Assembly: GCA_028283855.1 (NCBI GenBank) | Contig: JAPWJX010000003.1 | Location: forward strand, 1,240,001 to 1,304,000 | Source: Verrucomicrobium sp. | GTDB taxonomy: Bacteria; Verrucomicrobiota; Verrucomicrobiia; Methylacidiphilales; GAS474 | Direction of reading: 5' to 3' | DNA length: 64,000 bases | Shown: in pieces, positions 5,201-46,087 of the stretch | Layout: every line of letters starts with the position of its first letter | Numbering within the stretch: position 1 is the stretch's first letter | Made by a program: the position numbers and the translations under genes | The notes under the pieces: generated by a model | Databases searched by the model: none | The model's input: only the letters and a program-made list of their open reading frames with translations | Told to the model about the DNA's origin: nothing

Positions 5201-7978
5201 ATGATCCATCGCCTCCTGCAATCCTTCCTCGTCGGCCTGGCGCGCTTCATCCACCGCTGGCCGCGGCTGATCGCCTTCACGGGGGTGGTCCTCACCGCCG
5301 CCGCCATCTGGCTGACCGTGACCAAGCTGACCGTCAGCGCCAACACCGATAACCTGGTCAGCGCCAAGTCTCCGGCCAACCGCTACTACCTCGACTACGT
5401 AAAGGAGTTCAACGTCACGGAAGACTTCGTCGTCGTCATCCGCTCCAACGACGTGGCGAAGAACCGCCAGGCCGCCCAGTTCATCGGCAGCCGCCTGGAG
5501 GCGATGCAGCCGGATCTGCGGCGCGTCCTCTATCACATCGACTTCTCCAAGCTGCAGGACCACTTCCTCCTCTTCCTGGACGCCAAGGACCTGGAAGGGA
5601 TCCGGCAGGAAGTCGGCGGCTACGCCGCGCAGCTCCGGCAGAACAACGTCCGCCTGGACCTCAACTCGATGCTCGACCAGGCCGACGCGATGTTCAACGA
5701 CAAGTACCTCCGCAAGAAGAGCAATTGGAAGGAGTTCAAGCCCTTCGTCGACCGCTTCGCCGACATGCTCGACCAGCTGGCCGACCAGATCGAGAACAAG
5801 GCCGACGCGCCCAAGGCCAAGGGCGCCAAGGTGAAGCCCGGCGCGGCCGCCGCCCAGGGCAAGCTGGCCGACATCTCCAAGGAAGTGGAGGAGAACGAGT
5901 ATCCCGGCTTCGACGAAGGCCGCACCCTGGTCATCACCGCCTCTCCCGCCGAAGGGAAGAAGGAAGGCCGCCCCTACGAAGTCGTCATTCCGAAGATCCG
6001 CGCAGTCCTGGCCGAGGCGCGCCAAGCCTATCCCGACGTCGACATCGGCCTGACCGGCGAGCCCGTTCTGACCGACGACGAGGTGGCCATGAGCGCCAAG
6101 GACAGCGCGGAGGCCGGGGCCCTGGCCTTCGCCCTCATCGCCGTTCTCTTCTTTGTCAGCTACCGGGAGCGGACCCGGCCCGTCATCGCCCTGCTGGTCC
6201 TGCTCATGGCGGTCAGCTGGTCGCTGGGCCTGACCGTCCTCACCGTCGGCCACCTGAACATCATCTCCCAGGCCTTCGTGGCCATGGTCATCGGCTTGGG
6301 GATCGACTTCGGCATCCAGATCATGGGCCGTTATGAGGAGGAGCTGGCGCGCGGCTCCGCCCTGGAAAACGCCCTCGTCGCGGGCGTCGGCTACACCGGC
6401 GCGGCGGTCGTCACCGGCGGCACCACCACGGCGCTGGCCTTCTTCACCATGTGCTTTAACGACTTCACCGGCCTGGCGGAGTTCGGCGTGGTGGCGGGCT
6501 CCGGCGTCGTCCTTTGCCTGGTCGCCAACCTTGTCCTCCTGCCCGCCGTCTACGTCCTCATGGACCGGCGGAAGTCCCCCCAGGTGCTCCGCTCCCGCGC
6601 GGCGGCTTCCTCCCTGCCGGGCCAGCGGATCGATGCCGTCCTCTTCGGCCATCCCCGCTTGGTCCTGGGCGCGGCGGCCGCGGCCACCGTGGCGGCGGCC
6701 TTCTTCATCCCCAAGGTCCGCTTCGACTACAATCTCCTGAACCTCCAGAGCCCGAAGCTGGAGTCCGTCCGGGAAGCCCTGGTCCTCAACGCGCCGGGCA
6801 ACTCCATCCTCTTCGGCGTCTCCGTGGCGGACAACGTGGAGGACGCGCGCGCCCGCATCGCCCGCTTCCAGGCGCTGCCCACCGTCGCCGCCGTCCGCTG
6901 CCCCATCGTCGACATGACCCCGCGCGACCTGGATTCGAAGCGGCCCATCGTGCGGGAGATCGCCGCCTCCCTGGAAGGCGTCCGGCTGAATACCGACGTT
7001 TCCGACACCGTCGACGTCGCCCGCGCGCGGGTGAAGATCGGCGAGCTGCTGAACGACTGCCAGCAGGGCGTCGCCCAGGCGCGCAAATACCGGCTGATCC
7101 CGCAGGCGCGGGAGGCGGTGGAGGTCTTCGGCAAGCTGATCCCGCCCCTGGAACGGGCGCAGAAGGCCATGGAAGGGCTCTCCCAAGCCGAGCTGGGCCG
7201 CCGCCTGAACCGCTACCAGGTCAACGTCTTCGGCACCATGCGGCGCAACCTGGCCTTCCTGGCCGGGCAGAAGGCGGAAGGGGCCATCACCGTGGAGGAC
7301 ATCCCCCTGCCGCTGCGGGAACGCTACCTCTCCCCGCACGGGAAGATCCTCATCGAGATCTCCCCGAAGGAAAACGTCTGGAACCGGGAGGCCGACGCCG
7401 CCTTCGTCCGCGACCTCCGCACCGTCGACCCCCGCGTCACCGGCGCGCCCGTGCAGAACTTCGAGTACATCGACCTGCTGCGCGCCAGCTACGTGCAGGC
7501 GGCGAAGTGGGCTGCCGTCGCCATCGTCATCCTCATCTGCCTCCACTTCGGGCGGCCCTCGCTCATCCTCCTCACCCTCCTGCCGCTGGCCATGGGCATC
7601 GCCTGGACGTTGGGGCTCATGGGCGCGTTCCACTACCCCTTCAACCCGGCCAACATCGTCACCCTGCCTCTGGTGATCGGCATCGGCGTGGCCTACGGCG
7701 TCTACACCGTCGACCGCTACCGGGAAGACCAGCGCCTCTCCCTCTTCCACGGCAGCACGGGGAAGGCCATTGTCCTTTCCGCGCTGACGGCCATGATCGG
7801 CTTCGGCTCCATGATGATCAGCGCCTATCCGGGGCTCTTCAGCCTGGGCCTGCTCATGTTCCTGGGCGTCGGCATGTGCCTGGTCACCAGCATCGGCGTC
7901 ATGCCCCAGCTCCTGAAGCTGCGGCAGGAAGACGCCCCCTCCGCTCCCGTCCGGGAAGCGGTTCCCCTGAAGAAATAG
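5201..7978 (+). CDS. hpnN: RND/MMPL-family lipid exporter, HpnN-like
   Basis: 925 aa with the duplicated RND layout. One TM segment near residues 20-40 is followed by a large periplasmic loop, then TM segments about 305-450 (LAFALIAVLFFVSYRERTRP, AFVAMVIGLGIDFGIQIMGR). A second TM at about 490 is followed by a second loop and a final TM block (about 765-905). The family includes HpnN, which moves hopanoids to the outer membrane. The first loop is Lys/Ala-rich near residues 200-220. No good Shine-Dalgarno is seen (TCTTTTCCCC before ATG). Its place behind lpxB fits lipid transport; the exact substrate is inferred. Confidence 0.8.
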   Translation: MIHRLLQSFLVGLARFIHRWPRLIAFTGVVLTAAAIWLTVTKLTVSANTDNLVSAKSPANRYYLDYVKEFNVTEDFVVVIRSNDVAKNRQAAQFIGSRLEAMQPDLRRVLYHIDFSKLQDHFLLFLDAKDLEGIRQEVGGYAAQLRQNNVRLDLNSMLDQADAMFNDKYLRKKSNWKEFKPFVDRFADMLDQLADQIENKADAPKAKGAKVKPGAAAAQGKLADISKEVEENEYPGFDEGRTLVITASPAEGKKEGRPYEVVIPKIRAVLAEARQAYPDVDIGLTGEPVLTDDEVAMSAKDSAEAGALAFALIAVLFFVSYRERTRPVIALLVLLMAVSWSLGLTVLTVGHLNIISQAFVAMVIGLGIDFGIQIMGRYEEELARGSALENALVAGVGYTGAAVVTGGTTTALAFFTMCFNDFTGLAEFGVVAGSGVVLCLVANLVLLPAVYVLMDRRKSPQVLRSRAAASSLPGQRIDAVLFGHPRLVLGAAAAATVAAAFFIPKVRFDYNLLNLQSPKLESVREALVLNAPGNSILFGVSVADNVEDARARIARFQALPTVAAVRCPIVDMTPRDLDSKRPIVREIAASLEGVRLNTDVSDTVDVARARVKIGELLNDCQQGVAQARKYRLIPQAREAVEVFGKLIPPLERAQKAMEGLSQAELGRRLNRYQVNVFGTMRRNLAFLAGQKAEGAITVEDIPLPLRERYLSPHGKILIEISPKENVWNREADAAFVRDLRTVDPRVTGAPVQNFEYIDLLRASYVQAAKWAAVAIVILICLHFGRPSLILLTLLPLAMGIAWTLGLMGAFHYPFNPANIVTLPLVIGIGVAYGVYTVDRYREDQRLSLFHGSTGKAIVLSALTAMIGFGSMMISAYPGLFSLGLLMFLGVGMCLVTSIGVMPQLLKLRQEDAPSAPVREAVPLKK

Positions 7979-29187: not shown

Positions 29188-30324
29188 ATGACCGCCGCCG
29201 CCGAATCCGTCCCTGTCAGCACGCACGACCCCGTCAACGCCCAGATCCTGGCCGTTTCCGAGGACCGCATCGGCGGCTTCCACCGGCAGCCCCTGCACGA
29301 GATCGCCCGCCTTTCCGAGGTGCCGCTGGAAACCGTCGTGGAGCGGATCCGCGCCATGCTTCAGGCGGGCACCATCCGGCGCGTCCGCCAGACCCTGATG
29401 GCCAACGACCTGGCCCCCGGCGCCCTCGTCGCCTGGCGGGTGCCGCAGGAGCGGCTCGACGCGGCCTTCGACTACCTCTTCCAAAAGGACCCCTTCAGCG
29501 GCCACGTCGTCGTCCGCTCCACGGACGCGGAGACGGCCGGTTCCCAATACAAGCTCTGGACCACCCTCAAGGTTCCCCAGGGCTTCTCCATGCAGAAGCA
29601 CGGGGAATACCTGGCCCGGCAGATCGGCGCCGACCATTTCAAGCTGATGCCCGCCAAGGGCATCTTCGTCCTGGGCGTCGGCCACGTCCGGCGGCGGGAA
29701 ATCCCCTTCGGCTCGAAGGGGGAGGCCCCCGCCGCGATGCACGCCATCGAGGTGCAGGCCCTTTCCGATTTGGAGTGGCAGGTCTTGGTCGCCCTCAAGC
29801 GGGAATTCGCCGTCGAGGAGCTGGTGCCGGACCTCTGGGCCGCCCGCGCGGCGGAGGCCGGGATCTCCCTGGAGAAATTCTACGAGGTGGCCGAGGGGCT
29901 GGTGAAGCGCGGCGTCGTCGGCCGTTTCTCCACCTTCCTGGAGCATGTGAAGGCCAACGCGGCCGGGGAGCGGGTCACCCGCTTCAACGCCCTCTTCCAC
30001 TGGGCCGTGCCCAAGGGGCGCGAGCTGGAGGCGGGCTGCCAGGTGGGCCGCTTCCACATCCTCACCCACGCCTACTGGCGGGAGGGCGGGCCGGAGTTCA
30101 ACCACGTCAACATCATGGCCGTGGCCCACGGCACCGATAAGGAAAAGGTCCAGGGCCACAAGGCGGCCATCGACGCCCATCTCCGGGAAATGGGCATCCC
30201 GGTGAGCTACACCAACATCTTTTGGGGCGGACGGAGCGAGATCAAGCCCTCCGAAATCGCCCCTCAGGCCTACAAGGCCTGGGCAGAGGCCAACGGCGTC
30301 GACTGGCGCCAGATGACGGCTTAA
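29188..30324 (+). CDS. Doubled Lrp/AsnC-like protein related to siroheme decarboxylase AhbA/AhbB (NirDL-like)
   Basis: 378 aa with two similar halves. Each half has a winged-helix unit followed by an AsnC-like alpha/beta unit: half 1 about 10-165 (ERIRAMLQAGTIRRVRQTL, then GALVAWRVPQERLD), half 2 about 190-350 (EGLVKRGVVGRFSTFLEHVK, then RFNALFHWAVPKGRELEAG). The order 'GxxRRF... / NAxVxWxVP' resembles AhbA/AhbB and NirD/NirL, which decarboxylate siroheme in alternative heme or heme d1 synthesis. Those enzymes are commonly heterodimers; here both parts would be in one chain. No other ahb or nir gene is in the window, so a transcription-regulator role is not excluded. Confidence 0.6.
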   Translation: MTAAAESVPVSTHDPVNAQILAVSEDRIGGFHRQPLHEIARLSEVPLETVVERIRAMLQAGTIRRVRQTLMANDLAPGALVAWRVPQERLDAAFDYLFQKDPFSGHVVVRSTDAETAGSQYKLWTTLKVPQGFSMQKHGEYLARQIGADHFKLMPAKGIFVLGVGHVRRREIPFGSKGEAPAAMHAIEVQALSDLEWQVLVALKREFAVEELVPDLWAARAAEAGISLEKFYEVAEGLVKRGVVGRFSTFLEHVKANAAGERVTRFNALFHWAVPKGRELEAGCQVGRFHILTHAYWREGGPEFNHVNIMAVAHGTDKEKVQGHKAAIDAHLREMGIPVSYTNIFWGGRSEIKPSEIAPQAYKAWAEANGVDWRQMTA

Positions 30325-31205
30325 CGGCCTTTTGTTTTTTGCGGCGGGAGCGCCGCCTCCACGCCGGGGAGGGAGGCCCGGGCGGCCGCATGAAAGACGC
30401 CTCTCTCCAGGCGCGGCAGGGAAGGGAGGCTGCGGTGGAGCGTCTCGTCGGCGATCTGGCCGAAATCGATTTGGGAGCGGCTTTCCTCCGGCACCTGTTC
30501 CCACAATTGGAGCATTTCCGGGATGCGGCCCTGCCAAAGGCCGGGCTGGAAGATCTGCTCCAGGTTTCCCGCGTGCGTGGCGGTGCTTAGAACGCTCCGC
30601 CCGGCGTCGTTTGCGGTCAGGAAGTGCTGGGCGGTCAGCTGCGGCCCCAGGATAGCCACCGCCTGTCCCAGGTGCCCGTTGCTGGCCATGGCATGCAGGG
30701 AAGTCCACCCATCGCCATCCGGGAGGAGCAGGTGCTCGGGAGTCAATTTCTGGCCCGGACTCAAAAGGGAGGCGATTTGATCGAGGTGCCCCTCTTCCGC
30801 CGCCTGATGCAGGGGAGTCCTGCCCCGGCTGCCGTGGGTCAGCAGATGGTGGAGGGAAAGGGTTTCCCCGTCCTGGTTCAAGATGGCTGCTGCCTGATCG
30901 AAGTGACCGAACATCGCCACCCAATAGTAGAGCGTGTCGCCGGCGCTGTCCCGGAGGGAAAGGTCCTTAGAAGAGAGGGGGTGGTCCGTGTCCTCCAGGA
31001 TGGAGGCCACCTGGTTCAGGCAACCATACCGGGCCGCCCAATGCAGGGGCGTGTACCCCTTGTTGCTTTTCAGGAGGAAGTGGGCGTGGGTGAGCTGGTG
31101 TTTTTCCGCGAACGGGAGGAGCTCGTATTCGGTGATGGCCTCGTAGATCCGCCATTCCGTTTCCCGGGAAAGGGGAAGCGCGGTTTTTTCGGGTGCGTCG
31201 GCCAT
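30321..31205 (-). CDS. Ankyrin-repeat protein, copy 1
   Basis: 294 aa, no signal peptide. About five ankyrin units run from residue 40 to 215 (GYTPLHWAARYGCLNQVASI, GRTPLHQAAEEGHLDQIASL, GWTSLHAMASNGHLGQAVAI). A C-terminal module shared with the two neighbouring genes follows: QPGLWQGRIPEMLQLWEQVP, then SQIDFGQI. The start is ATG 31205; the longer open frame (to 31397) would run through the stop of copy 2. The ATAGCCGAAT box lies 8 nt before the ATG. The 3' end overlaps the convergent AhbAB-like gene by 4 bp. Confidence 0.82.
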   Translation of the reverse strand: MADAPEKTALPLSRETEWRIYEAITEYELLPFAEKHQLTHAHFLLKSNKGYTPLHWAARYGCLNQVASILEDTDHPLSSKDLSLRDSAGDTLYYWVAMFGHFDQAAAILNQDGETLSLHHLLTHGSRGRTPLHQAAEEGHLDQIASLLSPGQKLTPEHLLLPDGDGWTSLHAMASNGHLGQAVAILGPQLTAQHFLTANDAGRSVLSTATHAGNLEQIFQPGLWQGRIPEMLQLWEQVPEESRSQIDFGQIADETLHRSLPSLPRLERGVFHAAARASLPGVEAALPPQKTKGR

Positions 31206-31213
31206 GAGACTCA

Positions 31214-31223
31214 ATTCGGCTAT
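31214..31223 (-). promoter_or_regulatory. ATAGCCGAAT box before ankyrin gene copy 1
   Basis: Exact ATAGCCGAAT on the minus strand, 8 nt before the ATG at 31205. Its TAG is also the stop codon of copy 2. No Shine-Dalgarno sequence is seen. Confidence 0.6.
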
Positions 31224-31996
31224 TGGCCGTGTTCGCGGACGGGGGTTTCCCTGGTGGGAAGGGCAATGGCCGGACGGGAGGCGGCGCGGAAGGCGTCGGG
31301 GTCCAGGCGGGGAGGAACGGTGCGGCTTAAGAAAAGGGTCTGCCGGGTGATTTTGGGGAAGTCGATTTGGGAGCGGTTTTCTTCCGGCACATGGCACCAG
31401 AGGCGGAGCATTTCCGGCACGCGGCCATGCCAGAGGGAGGGTTGGAAGACTTGGCGGAGGTTGTCATGCTCCGCCGCTTGGATCAGCGGCGTCTTGCCGG
31501 AAGCATTCGGTGCCAGGAAGTGCTCGGCGGCGAGTGTTTCGCCGGAATCCTTAAGAAGGGCGGCGACTTGATCGAGGTGGCCGCCGTGGGCCGCCCAATA
31601 GAGGGGGGAGCTATTCGATCCGTTGCCGGCCAGGAGGTGCTCCAGTGTCAGGCGTTGGCCGGACTCTTTCACAACGGCGGCGATTTGGTCGAGGTGCCCC
31701 GTAAGCGCCGCGGGATGGACGGAGGAGTCTCCGAAGCGCGTGGGGGTAAGAAAATCTTCCAGGATGAGCCTTTGCCCCGCTTCCTTTACGGCGGAAGCGA
31801 CCTGCGGGAGGCACCCTTCCTGGGCCGCCCACACCAAGGGGTAATAGCCGTCCCCGTCCAGGGAGAGGAAGTGTTCCCGGGAAAAGGCAAACTCGGCGGT
31901 TAAGGCGGGCAGCTCCCCGTTCAGGATGGCGCTTCTTAACCGTGTGGAGGTTGCCACGGTTGGAAGCGGCACGATTTTTTCGATGGGAGCGTCCAT
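31220..31996 (-). CDS. Ankyrin-repeat protein, copy 2
   Basis: 258 aa. Four ankyrin-like units occupy residues about 48-185 (YYPLVWAAQEGCLPQVASAV, SSPLYWAAHGGHLDQVAALL). The C-terminal module shared with copies 1 and 3 follows (QPSLWHGRVPEMLRLWCHVP, SQIDFPKI). The 14-nt gap to copy 1 is the same length as the gap from copy 3. Proteins of this kind mediate protein-protein contact; the partner is unknown. Confidence 0.82.
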   Translation of the reverse strand: MDAPIEKIVPLPTVATSTRLRSAILNGELPALTAEFAFSREHFLSLDGDGYYPLVWAAQEGCLPQVASAVKEAGQRLILEDFLTPTRFGDSSVHPAALTGHLDQIAAVVKESGQRLTLEHLLAGNGSNSSPLYWAAHGGHLDQVAALLKDSGETLAAEHFLAPNASGKTPLIQAAEHDNLRQVFQPSLWHGRVPEMLRLWCHVPEENRSQIDFPKITRQTLFLSRTVPPRLDPDAFRAASRPAIALPTRETPVREHGQ

Positions 31997-32004
31997 GAAC
32001 CTTG

Positions 32005-32014
32005 ATTCGGCTAT
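32005..32014 (-). promoter_or_regulatory. ATAGCCGAAT box before ankyrin gene copy 2
   Basis: Exact ATAGCCGAAT on the minus strand, 8 nt before the ATG at 31996; the TAG is the stop codon of copy 3. Confidence 0.6.
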
Positions 32015-32559
32015 TGGCCGCGTTGAAGGGAGGGGGATTCCCCGTCGGGCGGGGAGAAACCCGGGCGGCGGGCGGCGCGGAAGGCGTCGGCGGCGGGGCG
32101 GGGAAGCGCCGGACGGCTGGAAAGGGAGGCTTCGCCGGAAACCTGCTCAAAATCGATTTGGGAGCGGTCTTTTTCCGGGACGTGGCTCCAGAGCTGGAGC
32201 ATCTCCGTCAGGCGGCCTTGCCAAAGGGAGGGCTGGAAGATTTGATCGAGCTGGCCTTCCCGGGCCGCGCCGTGCAGGGCGGTGTAACCATGATCGTCTT
32301 TGACCAGGAAATGCGTCGGGGAGAATGTTTCCCCGGAATCTTTCAGGGCGGCGATGACTTGGTCGAGGCGGCGATGCCAGGCGGCTTGATGCAAAGGGGT
32401 GTCGCCGTGACCGTTCTGGTTTTCGATGAGAAAATGTTCCAGGGAAAGCGCGTAGTCCTGGTTGAAGGAGAGAAACGCATCGTTTTTGAGGGATCTGACC
32501 AATAGTTCCGCTGTCCTGGGACTCAAAGGCAGGGATTTTTTGGCTCTTTCACCGGGCAT
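32011..32559 (-). CDS. Ankyrin-repeat protein, copy 3 (shortest)
   Basis: 182 aa with two clear ankyrin units (DTPLHQAAWHRRLDQVIAAL and YTALHGAAREGQLDQIF) and the shared C-terminal module (QPSLWQGRLTEMLQLWSHVP, SQIDFEQV). It appears to have lost or never gained the extra repeats of copies 1 and 2. It is first in the three-gene run, 47 bp after the peroxiredoxin stop, with the ATAGCCGAAT box 9 nt before its ATG. Confidence 0.82.
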   Translation of the reverse strand: MPGERAKKSLPLSPRTAELLVRSLKNDAFLSFNQDYALSLEHFLIENQNGHGDTPLHQAAWHRRLDQVIAALKDSGETFSPTHFLVKDDHGYTALHGAAREGQLDQIFQPSLWQGRLTEMLQLWSHVPEKDRSQIDFEQVSGEASLSSRPALPRPAADAFRAARRPGFSPPDGESPSLQRGQ

Positions 32560-32568
32560 GAAAGAGTA

Positions 32569-32578
32569 ATTCGGCTAT
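32569..32578 (-). promoter_or_regulatory. ATAGCCGAAT box before ankyrin gene copy 3
   Basis: Exact ATAGCCGAAT on the minus strand, 9 nt before the ATG at 32559. Here the box is in a true intergenic region, so it is not a by-product of an upstream stop codon. No Shine-Dalgarno sequence is seen. Confidence 0.6.
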
Positions 32579-42606: not shown

Positions 42607-42780
42607 TTAAAGGTCTTTTTCCGGCGCAGGCCGCCCGTTGCGGCTGGCCTGAAAGGATTCCTTTTCCAGCTCTTCGACCGGCTTTTGGGGGCCGGGAGTC
42701 TCGCTGATTTTCACCACCGGCTGGTTCTTTCGGGAACCTTCGCCCGTATGCTCGCCCTGTTTTTTCTTGGTCGGTGACAT
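42607..42780 (-). CDS. 57-aa hydrophilic protein of unknown function
   Basis: A short ORF with a very good ribosome binding site: AAAAGGAGG lies about 9 nt before the ATG at 42780. The translation starts MSPTKKKQGEHTGEGSRKNQ and ends in PEKDL. It is Lys/Glu/Pro-rich, without signal peptide or TM segment, probably disordered. It converges with the mini-lipoprotein gene and diverges from the duplicated pair at 42881. No family recognised. Confidence 0.6.
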   Translation of the reverse strand: MSPTKKKQGEHTGEGSRKNQPVVKISETPGPQKPVEELEKESFQASRNGRPAPEKDL

Positions 42781-42862
42781 GGTGGGGATCCTCCTTTTCC
42801 CTTAGCCTAGGGGTTCCGGGAAAATTGGCAAGGTGGGGCTTTTTAGGGAAAACGGCGCTCCG

Positions 42863-42872
42863 ATAGCCGAAT
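42863..42872 (+). promoter_or_regulatory. ATAGCCGAAT box before duplicated gene A
   Basis: Exact ATAGCCGAAT, 8 nt before the ATG at 42881, the same sequence and spacing as before the ankyrin genes 10 kb away. No Shine-Dalgarno sequence is seen. Confidence 0.6.
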
Positions 42873-42880
42873 TACCCTTC

Positions 42881-43411
42881 ATGAAATCCCAGGCCTCTTG
42901 TGCCCTTCGCTTTGCCGAACCCCATGAAGCCAACCGGCTTCGCAACCATCCCCGGCAATTGGCCGACGCCCTGGCGGAGGTCTCCATCTCGGCGGCTCAG
43001 GAGAATATCCTAAAGGGGAGCCACCCGGATGGCCTCGATGCCGCGGCCCACAATTTATTGAAGGCGGTCTATGATTCCCGCGAGGGCTTCCCGGAGTGGA
43101 CGGTGGTCGACGCGCATCGACTCCTTGCGAAAAAGGCCGAAAAGATCGTCGGCAGGGAAACCATGCAGGCCCACGCCGAAGAGCCCTGGCACCCCCACGG
43201 TTCCAAGGCCCATCTCCAATACCCGACCCTGCCTTTGTGGAACCAGGCCTCGCACTTTCTCGATCAGCGGCACGATGCGTACCGGGCTTTCCTGGACGCG
43301 GAAAAAGGGAAGGAGCTGGCCGCTGTGATGAGCGGACAGGCTCGCCGGGCCGAGGCCGTCGCCCCCGAAAAGAAACCCAGCTTCCTGGACCGGTTGCTGC
43401 ACCGCAGCTAA
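42881..43411 (+). CDS. Unknown protein, duplicated gene A
   Basis: 176 aa, no signal peptide or TM segment, mostly helical. Segments shared with the next gene: ALRFAEPHEANRLRN, LADALAEVSI, HNLLKAVYDSR, EPWHPHGSKA, LQYPTLPLW and the C-terminal KKPSFLDRLLHRS. No known domain recognised. An upstream in-frame ATG at 42833 is not used here because it lies before the shared ATAGCCGAAT box. The gene and 18 bp after it form one unit of a direct repeat. Confidence 0.75.
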   Translation: MKSQASCALRFAEPHEANRLRNHPRQLADALAEVSISAAQENILKGSHPDGLDAAAHNLLKAVYDSREGFPEWTVVDAHRLLAKKAEKIVGRETMQAHAEEPWHPHGSKAHLQYPTLPLWNQASHFLDQRHDAYRAFLDAEKGKELAAVMSGQARRAEAVAPEKKPSFLDRLLHRS

Positions 43412-43439
43412 CTAGCTGACGGCCGCCAGCTAGCCACTC

Positions 43440-43448
43440 ATAGCCAAT
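43440..43448 (+). promoter_or_regulatory. Degenerate ATAGCC(G)AAT box before duplicated gene B
   Basis: ATAGCCAAT, one base shorter than the other four boxes, again 8 nt before the ATG (43457). It sits in the 27-bp junction between the duplicated units. Confidence 0.5.
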
Positions 43449-43456
43449 CACCCCTT

Positions 43457-43996
43457 ATGAAATTCCAAGCCTCTTACGCCCTTCGCTTTGCCGAGCCCCA
43501 TGAAGCCAACCGGCTTCGCAACCAGCCCCGGGAATTGGCCGACGCCCTGGCGGAGGTCTCCATCGGGGCGGCCCAGGAGAGCATTCAGACGGGGGGGCAC
43601 TATCCAGACGGCCTCGATACCGCGGCCCACAATTTATTGAAGGCGGTCTATGATTCCCGCGGAGACTTCCCGGATTGGACGGTGGTGGACGCGCATCAAC
43701 TCCTTGCGAAAAAGGCCGAAGAGATCGTCGGCAAGGAAACCATGCGGGCCCACGCCAAGGAGCCCTGGCACCCCCACGGTTCCAAGGCCTATCTCCAATA
43801 CCCGACCTTGCCTTTGTGGGACCAGGCTGCGCTTTTCCTCCACTTGCGGCATGACGCCTACCGGGCTTTCCGCGAGACGGAAAAGGGGAAGGAGCTGGCC
43901 GCCGCCATGAACGGACAGGCCCGCCGGGCCGAGGCCGTCTCCGTGGAGCCCGAAAAGAAGCCCAGCTTCCTGGACCGGCTGCTGCACCGCAGCTAA
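43457..43996 (+). CDS. Unknown protein, duplicated gene B
   Basis: 179 aa, tandem copy of gene A with most residues retained, including EPWHPHGSKA and the C-terminal KKPSFLDRLLHRS. The high similarity at DNA level (for example the last 30 bp before the stop differ at very few places) points to a recent duplication. Its stop abuts the recG stop tail to tail with no gap. Confidence 0.75.
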   Translation: MKFQASYALRFAEPHEANRLRNQPRELADALAEVSIGAAQESIQTGGHYPDGLDTAAHNLLKAVYDSRGDFPDWTVVDAHQLLAKKAEEIVGKETMRAHAKEPWHPHGSKAYLQYPTLPLWDQAALFLHLRHDAYRAFRETEKGKELAAAMNGQARRAEAVSVEPEKKPSFLDRLLHRS

Positions 43997-46087
43997 CTAG
44001 CTGACGGCCGCCAGGGAGTGATGCCCGGCCACTCCCCGGTCTAAGAGCCGGCGCAGGGCGGGCATGCTCTTGAGCGCCGGGTCTTTCCGGAAGAGCGCCT
44101 CCGCGTCCGTCCGGGCGCGGCGCAGCATCTCCCAGTCCTGCACCGGATCGCCGAAGCGCAGGGGAGGGAGGCCGCTTTGGTCGGTTCCCAAAATGTCCCC
44201 CGGGCCGCGAATGCGCAGATCCTCCTCCGCGATGCGGAAACCGTCGGTCGTCTCCTCCATGATCTTCAGCCGCCGCCAGCTGTCGGCGCTGCGCGGCTGG
44301 CCGATGAGGACGCAGTAGGACTTGTTCCCCCCGCGGCCGATGCGGCCCCGCAGCTGGTGCAGCGCGGCCAGGCCGAAGCGCTCCGCGTTCTCGATCACCA
44401 TGATGGTGGCGTTGGGGACGTCGACACCCACCTCGATGACCGGCGTGCTGACCAGCACCTGGATCTCCCCCGCGCGGAAGCGGGCCATGACCCGCTCCTT
44501 TTCCTCCGGCTTGAGCCGCCCGTGCATGAGGCCGACGACGGCGGGGGAAAGCTCCGCCTGGAGATGTTCGAACTCCTTCTGCACCGCCTTGGCCTCCACC
44601 CGCTCCGATTCGTCGATCAGGGGGTAGACCACGTAGGTCTGGCGGCCGGCCGCCACCTCCTCCCGGACGAATTTCCAGACCTTCGGCAGGTCCTTTTCCG
44701 AGCGGCAGGCGGTGATGATCCGGCCCCGGCCGGGCGGCAGCTCGTCCAGGATGGAAACGTCCAGGTCCCCGTAGACCGTCATAGCCAGCGTGCGGGGGAT
44801 CGGCGTGGCGGTCATGACCAGGATGTCCGGGTGCCGCCCTTTCTGCGCCAGCGAAAGCCGCTGCATGACGCCGAATTTGTGCTGCTCGTCGATGACGATG
44901 AGTCCCAGCCTGTCGGCGGCGAAGGAATCGTAGAGCAGCGCGTGGGTGCCCACGGTGATCGCCCCCTTGCCGCCGAAGAGGCTCTCCAGCATCGGCGCGC
45001 TGTCCAGGGGGGAGCGGTCCCCCTTCTTCTTGGAGCCGGTATGGAGGCCCACGGAGACGCCCAGCGGCTCCAGCCAGCGGCGCAGGTTGAGGAAATGCTG
45101 CTCGGCCAGGATTTCCGTCGGCGCCATGAGGGCGGCGTGTTCCCCGCGCTCCACCGCGCAGAGCATGGCGTAGACGGCCACCATCGTCTTCCCGGAGCCG
45201 ACGTCCCCCTGGAGCATCCGGTTCATCGGCGTGGGCAGGGCCAGGTCGCGCGCCAATTCCCCCATCACCCGCTGCTGCGCCCCGGTGGGGGAAAAGGGGA
45301 GGCTCTGGACGAAGGCGGCGGCCAGCGCGGAGGACGGGGCCTGGCGCTCCCGGCGGACCTTCTCCCGGCTCATCCGGCGGCGGGAAAGGACGCACTGCTG
45401 GAGGAAGAACTCGTCGTAGACCAGCCGCTGGCGGGCCTGGTGCTGCTTTTCCCAGCTGGTGGGGAAGTGGATCTCCCGCACCGCCTCCGGCAGGCCCATC
45501 AGCTCCGCCGGGACGGGGAAGGGATCGGGCAGGTCCAGGGGGGCCTTCTGCGTGGCGTAGTAGAGGATGCGGCGCAGGACGCGCTGGGAGAGGCCCTCCG
45601 TCAGGCCGTAGATGGGGGTGATCCGGCTTAGATGGATGTATTCCTCGTCGTCCCGCTCCACGATTTCGAATTCCGGGTGGACCATGGTCCAGTGCTTCTT
45701 TCCCTTCTTGAGCTTTCCGTGGAAGACCACCTCCCTGTCGGCAACGAGCAGCTTTTGCAGGTAGTGGACGTTGAACCACATGGCGTGGAGGGCATCCTCC
45801 GGCCGGATGACGGAGGACCCGCTGGGGGAGAGAACCACCTCAAAAACCGTCCGCCCGCCGCGCCAACGGCTCTGCCGGGCCTGGAGGATTCGCCCCTGGA
45901 TGGTGACCGCCTCCCCTTCCGCCGCCATGGCCAGGGGGACGGAATGGGCCCGGTCCTCGTAGCGGCGGGGGACGTAGAAAAGAAGGTCTCGCTGGGTGTG
46001 GAGACCCAGGTGGGCGAAAAGGTCGGCCCGCTGCGGACCGATGCCGTAGACGGCGGCCAGGGGGGTGTCGTCGCTGGAGCCGTTCAT
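43997..46087 (-). CDS. recG: ATP-dependent DNA helicase RecG
   Basis: 696 aa, full length. An N-terminal wedge (OB-fold) domain precedes the helicase core: Walker A MLQGDVGSGKTMVAVYAML, APTEILAEQH, VGTHALL, Walker B VIDEQHKFGVMQR, MTATPIPRTLAM, VSTPVIEVGVDVPNAT, QLRGRIGRGG. It remodels stalled forks and branched DNA. The start overlaps the rnhC stop by 4 bp. Its last codons are copied after duplicated gene A. Confidence 0.96.
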   Translation of the reverse strand: MNGSSDDTPLAAVYGIGPQRADLFAHLGLHTQRDLLFYVPRRYEDRAHSVPLAMAAEGEAVTIQGRILQARQSRWRGGRTVFEVVLSPSGSSVIRPEDALHAMWFNVHYLQKLLVADREVVFHGKLKKGKKHWTMVHPEFEIVERDDEEYIHLSRITPIYGLTEGLSQRVLRRILYYATQKAPLDLPDPFPVPAELMGLPEAVREIHFPTSWEKQHQARQRLVYDEFFLQQCVLSRRRMSREKVRRERQAPSSALAAAFVQSLPFSPTGAQQRVMGELARDLALPTPMNRMLQGDVGSGKTMVAVYAMLCAVERGEHAALMAPTEILAEQHFLNLRRWLEPLGVSVGLHTGSKKKGDRSPLDSAPMLESLFGGKGAITVGTHALLYDSFAADRLGLIVIDEQHKFGVMQRLSLAQKGRHPDILVMTATPIPRTLAMTVYGDLDVSILDELPPGRGRIITACRSEKDLPKVWKFVREEVAAGRQTYVVYPLIDESERVEAKAVQKEFEHLQAELSPAVVGLMHGRLKPEEKERVMARFRAGEIQVLVSTPVIEVGVDVPNATIMVIENAERFGLAALHQLRGRIGRGGNKSYCVLIGQPRSADSWRRLKIMEETTDGFRIAEEDLRIRGPGDILGTDQSGLPPLRFGDPVQDWEMLRRARTDAEALFRKDPALKSMPALRRLLDRGVAGHHSLAAVS

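Follow-up and report, generated by a model that had tools for sequence, protein, structure and literature searches.

A paralogous gene pair, a copied recG end and a recurrent ATAGCC box in a Verrucomicrobium genome

Two orphan genes beside recG

Two orphan genes lie head-to-tail next to recG in the genome of Verrucomicrobium sp. (assembly GCA_028283855.1). They were analysed within a window of 64,000 nucleotides (contig JAPWJX010000003.1, positions 1,240,001 to 1,304,000), and coordinates are given on this window unless another contig is named. Gene A (42881-43411, + strand) encodes a protein of 176 amino acids and gene B (43457-43996, + strand) one of 179 amino acids. The two products are paralogs with about 83% amino acid identity (146/179 residues identical). 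The gene recG (43997-46087, - strand), whose product matches the Pfam families RecG_wedge, DEAD, Helicase_C and RecG_dom3_C, follows directly after the stop codon of gene B. A short box precedes each orphan gene. Upstream of gene A it is the exact form found throughout the genome, ATAGCCGAATTA (42863-42874, + strand), with the ATG at +18. Upstream of gene B it is an 11-bp form, ATAGCCAATCA (43440-43450, + strand), with the ATG at +17.

Genes A and B differ by 60 nucleotides over 176 codons, distributed as 15, 16 and 29 over codon positions 1, 2 and 3, with a dN of 0.084, a dS of 0.27 (NG86) and a dN/dS of about 0.31. This split and this ratio indicate that both reading frames are real and under protein constraint. 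The GC content at third positions is 0.76-0.79 in the pair against about 0.9 in neighbouring genes, a mild yet distinct difference in composition. The proteins matched no family in Pfam, NCBIfam, PHROGs or PDB sequences. Likewise, searches of 60 near relatives and of 388 phylum-wide genomes found no relative, and neither did those of GTDB and viral contigs, of phages and of plasmids. AlphaFold2, run on the two-row alignment of A and B, predicted a mainly helical structure with very low confidence (pLDDT 44).

The 18-bp sequence CTAGCTGACGGCCGCCAG is present directly after the stop codon of gene A (43412-43429, + strand) and again directly after that of gene B (43997-44014). At the second site its reverse complement encodes the final five codons and stop of recG (...LAAVS*), a gene of the - strand. 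The first-pass annotation had recognized these 18 bp as the last coding bases and stop of recG, and the identity is exact at both sites (18/18). The 18-mer has exactly two sites in the 2.56-Mb genome, with no third even when one mismatch is allowed; sharing by chance is excluded.

The direction of copying can be read from two sequenced members of the same genus, G001 and G002, in which the neighbour order of coiled-coil protein, small lipoprotein, recG, rnhB-like gene and mutY is kept. Neither has an A/B gene between the lipoprotein gene and recG, where 0.42-0.45 kb of other sequence is found instead. Since recG ends in SLASVS* in both of these genomes, which lack A/B, the tail is ancestral to recG, which agrees with the earlier proposal that the ancestral gene abutted recG. 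Their tips differ from the present recG at 3 and 6 of the 18 positions, but the copy behind gene A matches it at all 18, so the 18 bp were taken from the recG of this lineage after the split. The interval between the lipoprotein gene and recG is variable in the genus (L023 ~6425-6877; L024 ~6440-6862), with another small lipoprotein gene in G001 and repeat-like noncoding sequence in G002. In the present window it also holds a small basic ORF (MSPTKKKQGEHTGEG...; 42618-42780, - strand) between the lipoprotein gene and the gene A box, which was not seen at the matching place in the genus-mates.

The block that starts with the box and ends with the recG tip is 89% identical between the two copies across 566 aligned bp, and the homology stops sharply at the tip. 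As it runs unbroken from the genes into the tip, the further proposal that a block including the end of recG was duplicated is borne out as well. On sequence comparison, a tandem duplication that included the recG tip is therefore well supported.

Junction and age of the duplication

Beyond the 18-bp tip, copy A continues with CTA-GCCACTC, after which the gene B box begins. The word GCCACTC (43433-43439, + strand) has a second occurrence within recG, 13 bp beyond the tip (44028-44034), with a chance probability of ~0.005-0.013, and is probably a further recG remnant. Its presence on both sides suggests that the copied part of recG was longer and that ~10 bp have since been lost; the region of recG that matches the lost bases has a small hairpin. 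Just left of the gene A box lies CTCC (42858-42861, + strand), which is also found in recG at 44032-44035. This pair is a possible left microhomology and would fit a short-homology exchange, although 4 bp are weak and insignificant alone. The copied tip is also part of a near-palindrome, CTAGCTGACGG/CCGCCAGCTAG (43412-43433, + strand), completed by the 4 bp (CTAG) that follow the tip; it may reflect template switching or chance.

The first-pass annotation had further held that the junction created a slightly altered box, ATAGCCAAT, which was located at 43440. The alteration itself stands: the gene B box has lost a G and carries a T-to-C change, and the 11-bp form is found in the genome only before gene B. 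Its origin at the junction is not supported, as both changes fall within the box itself, on the downstream side of the apparent junction, and a box with the same T-to-C change occurs elsewhere, for instance before another tandem copy, the ankyrin-like gene at 31996. The spread of the box over the genome lay beyond the view of that reading. Gene B may be expressed differently from gene A, or its promoter may be in the course of being lost.

Dating from the divergence of A and B had also been proposed. Their dS of ~0.27 is about one third of the recG dS between this genome and the two genus-mates (0.76 and 0.68) and is below the value between the mates (0.39), with dS serving here as a rough clock, given GC bias and rate variation. 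By this measure, the duplication postdates the split from the sequenced genus-mates yet is of no very young age, and its earlier description as recent was overstated.

The structure resembles known tandem duplications that capture the end of a neighbouring gene, in that the copies are head-to-tail, the right junction lies sharply within the neighbour and short words are shared at the junction. It departs from such products of illegitimate recombination in that small deletions have altered the junction and no single-copy relative is known; no relative examined carries any A/B copy, single or double.

A recurrent box upstream of mostly orphan genes

The box ATAGCCGAATTA occurs in 54 exact copies in the 2.56-Mb genome (25 forward and 29 reverse), against ~0.035 expected from composition and none for the reversed control. 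In a 464-kb sample of the genome, chosen regardless of the box except that the window was included, it ranks first for over-representation among both 10-mers and 12-mers. No copy was found in 19 near relatives, including both genus-mates, and 387 other genomes of the phylum contain at most four each, the four being a tandem repeat. Likewise, 400 kb of G002 yielded no equivalent box; GC-rich and REP-like words lead there. The over-represented words of G002 itself, CCCTGTACAGCTGG and CGTGGCCGGAGT, are probably REP-like repeats and also occur near its recG (L216-L235). A literature search for the motif returned no related report, only an unrelated match in E. coli.

The position of the box relative to genes is narrowly defined. 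Boxes with at most one mismatch preceded an ORF 20 times in the 464 kb, whereas eight shuffled boxes gave no such site. With start codons assigned by a simple script, the ATG lies 17-21 nt from the start of the box in 38 of the 61 sites that have a downstream start codon, and the commonest offset (+18) leaves a gap of 6 nt between box and ATG. A Shine-Dalgarno-like motif accompanies only 1 of 40 starts within 23 nt of the box, against 6 of 18 later starts (Fisher P = 0.0026). An A immediately precedes the box in 52/61 sites, and a weak T-rich and then GGG pattern is found 16-24 nt upstream; this upstream part of the putative promoter is thus only weakly conserved, at 0.2-0.4 bits per column. 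Because the box ends ~6 nt before most ATGs, transcription from it would begin at, or close to, the A of the ATG, which would yield leaderless mRNAs. From its sequence and position, the box is most likely a promoter core, and we infer that one regulator reads all of its copies.

The genes preceded by the box number about 60-90 and mostly encode orphan or unknown proteins. The window contains five of them, namely genes A and B together with a run of tandem ankyrin-like genes (~30321-32559, - strand), three in number, each of which starts 18-19 nt after a ATAGCCGAAT box. An exact ATAGCCGAATTA (32567-32578, - strand) precedes the ankyrin-like gene at 32011-32559 (- strand). The box ATAGCCGAATCA (32003-32014, - strand) precedes that at 31220-31996 (- strand), and ATAGCCGAATTG (31212-31223, - strand) the third ankyrin-like ORF at ~30321-31205 (- strand), both with the ATG at +18. 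The variants in this run read AATTA, AATCA and AATTG. In Pfam searches, the products of 58 box genes matched only 13 families and those of 38 control genes from the window matched 85, a contrast somewhat exaggerated because the controls were picked partly by high third-position GC. The matches of the box genes comprised adenosine deaminase (a tandem pair), ankyrin repeats, hexapeptide repeats, ChaN/TraB-like proteins, NT5C, GNAT and GDSL. Compared with the controls, box proteins are shorter and more hydrophilic, and their C-termini are more basic and hydrophilic, which could be a secretion trait or mere disorder. A regulon of injectisome effectors was considered and rejected: the only FHIPEP protein of the genome is FlhA-like and lies inside the flagellar cluster, so no separate injectisome is seen.

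Adjacent box genes less than 2 kb apart form 8 pairs against 3.1 expected (P = 0.01), and several neighbouring pairs are homologous, which suggests that A and B are one instance of a repeated process. In the tandem pair of adenosine-deaminase-like genes (G000:C4:184000-188700), an exact box stands before each gene.

Several known systems share features with the box. Promoters of sigma-28 (FliA) have the -10 sequence GCCGATAA and a TAAA -35 element with a spacing of N15. Points of resemblance are the GCCGA within the box and the presence of a flagellar gene cluster in the genome. Control by sigma-28 was rejected, as TAAA is absent at the required spacing and no ATAGCC box occurs in the flagellar cluster (G000:C5:84000-113000). 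In Deinococcus-Thermus, leaderless expression is associated with a -10 element, TANNNT, located 6-7 bp before the ORF without a Shine-Dalgarno sequence; it is general, covering about a third of genes with no pathway bias (PMC12340547). The present box is similarly close to the ATG and usually lacks a Shine-Dalgarno sequence. In contrast, it is a specific ATAGCCGAAT(TA) before ~60-90 mostly orphan genes in one species, and it does not follow the TANNNT consensus, with GAATTA at the -10 position and TAGCCG likewise deviating from it. Given this mismatch and the smaller, biased gene set, the box was not assigned to the Deinococcus-Thermus class. The RDRM of the DdrO regulon in Deinococcus, a genus-wide 17-bp palindrome before DNA-repair genes (PMC5552922), is likewise one conserved motif that marks the promoters of a particular set of genes. 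Unlike the RDRM, the box is non-palindromic and was not seen in the genus-mates.

Origin of the gene pair and role of the box

The following course is proposed. A lineage-specific gene with its own ATAGCCGAATTA box, tail-to-tail with recG, gave rise to a second copy in head-to-tail order. On its right side the duplicated block reached into the coding sequence of recG, leaving behind the upstream copy a non-coding replica of 18 bp, and probably, past a small deletion, of another ~7 bp. The two copies then diverged under protein-level constraint; the sequence, the relatives and the codon pattern show this part of the course. The box, one of ~60 or more in the genome, would act as a promoter core giving leaderless mRNAs, and the regulon would have grown partly by tandem copying of box and gene together, A and B being one case; here the pairing is observed and its cause is conjectural. 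Taken jointly, a duplication that included the recG tip and a promoter-core box in a regulon growing by tandem copying are considered probable.

Direct repeats of the 3' end of a gene, such as those flanking gene B, are also what integrative elements leave behind, and a small element could have integrated at the end of recG with gene B as its cargo. However, the match between the copies extends beyond the 18-mer through the genes, which makes the repeat part of a 566-bp paralogous block. The 0.6-kb unit holds no integrase and has no phage or plasmid match; att duplications are thus very improbable here. Somewhat less improbable, though still doubtful, is that gene A is older and arose elsewhere, the recG tip having been added later by gene conversion or template switching between the copies. 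The near-palindrome at the junction would suit such an event, as would the 35 bp of identity at the 3' ends (stop codon and recG tip), a run longer than predicted from 89% identity (shuffle P = 0.014). Conversion is nevertheless unneeded, since run lengths overall fit a random distribution (longest run P = 0.32), and tandem duplication of the whole block remains the preferred account.

As to the box, its tightness over 10-12 bp could equally be that of a site for an activator or a repressor which overlaps a promoter. It has few one-mismatch forms, with variation greatest at the last two positions, and is unusually invariant for a bacterial core promoter. A transcription-factor operator, or a signal acting at the RNA level within a short 5' UTR, instead of a promoter core, is accordingly an alternative of some weight, yet it is considered unlikely. 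The distance to the ATG is most often 17-21, and Shine-Dalgarno-like motifs reappear at late starts, as would be expected if transcription starts near +18; an RNA signal would moreover require another promoter for most leaders. High copy number in a single species could also mark the conserved end of a dispersed repeat, mobile or REP-like, that plays no part in regulation. This is hardly credible for a sequence whose conservation ends after 12-13 bp and which stands before ORFs in fixed orientation and spacing to the ATG. A promoter core therefore remains the favoured role. A bolder form of this reading is tentative and may well be wrong: the near-invariant ATAGCCGAAT(TA) would define a promoter class private to a single verrucomicrobial lineage, with a dedicated sigma factor or activator and leaderless mRNAs, serving a fast-growing regulon for which tandem duplication is one route of expansion. 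Its lineage-specific products, some of them carrying ankyrin or enzyme domains and basic hydrophilic tails, may target a host or competitors.

The duplication of A and B is of an ordinary kind but unusually legible, in that its polarity, both borders and a rough age can be read. The box matters more: through it, some 60 orphan genes that could not otherwise be read become one set, which was not seen in the two sequenced genus-mates. This set offers a handle on the birth of a regulon, on the recruitment of orphan genes and on the choice of proteins for joint study.
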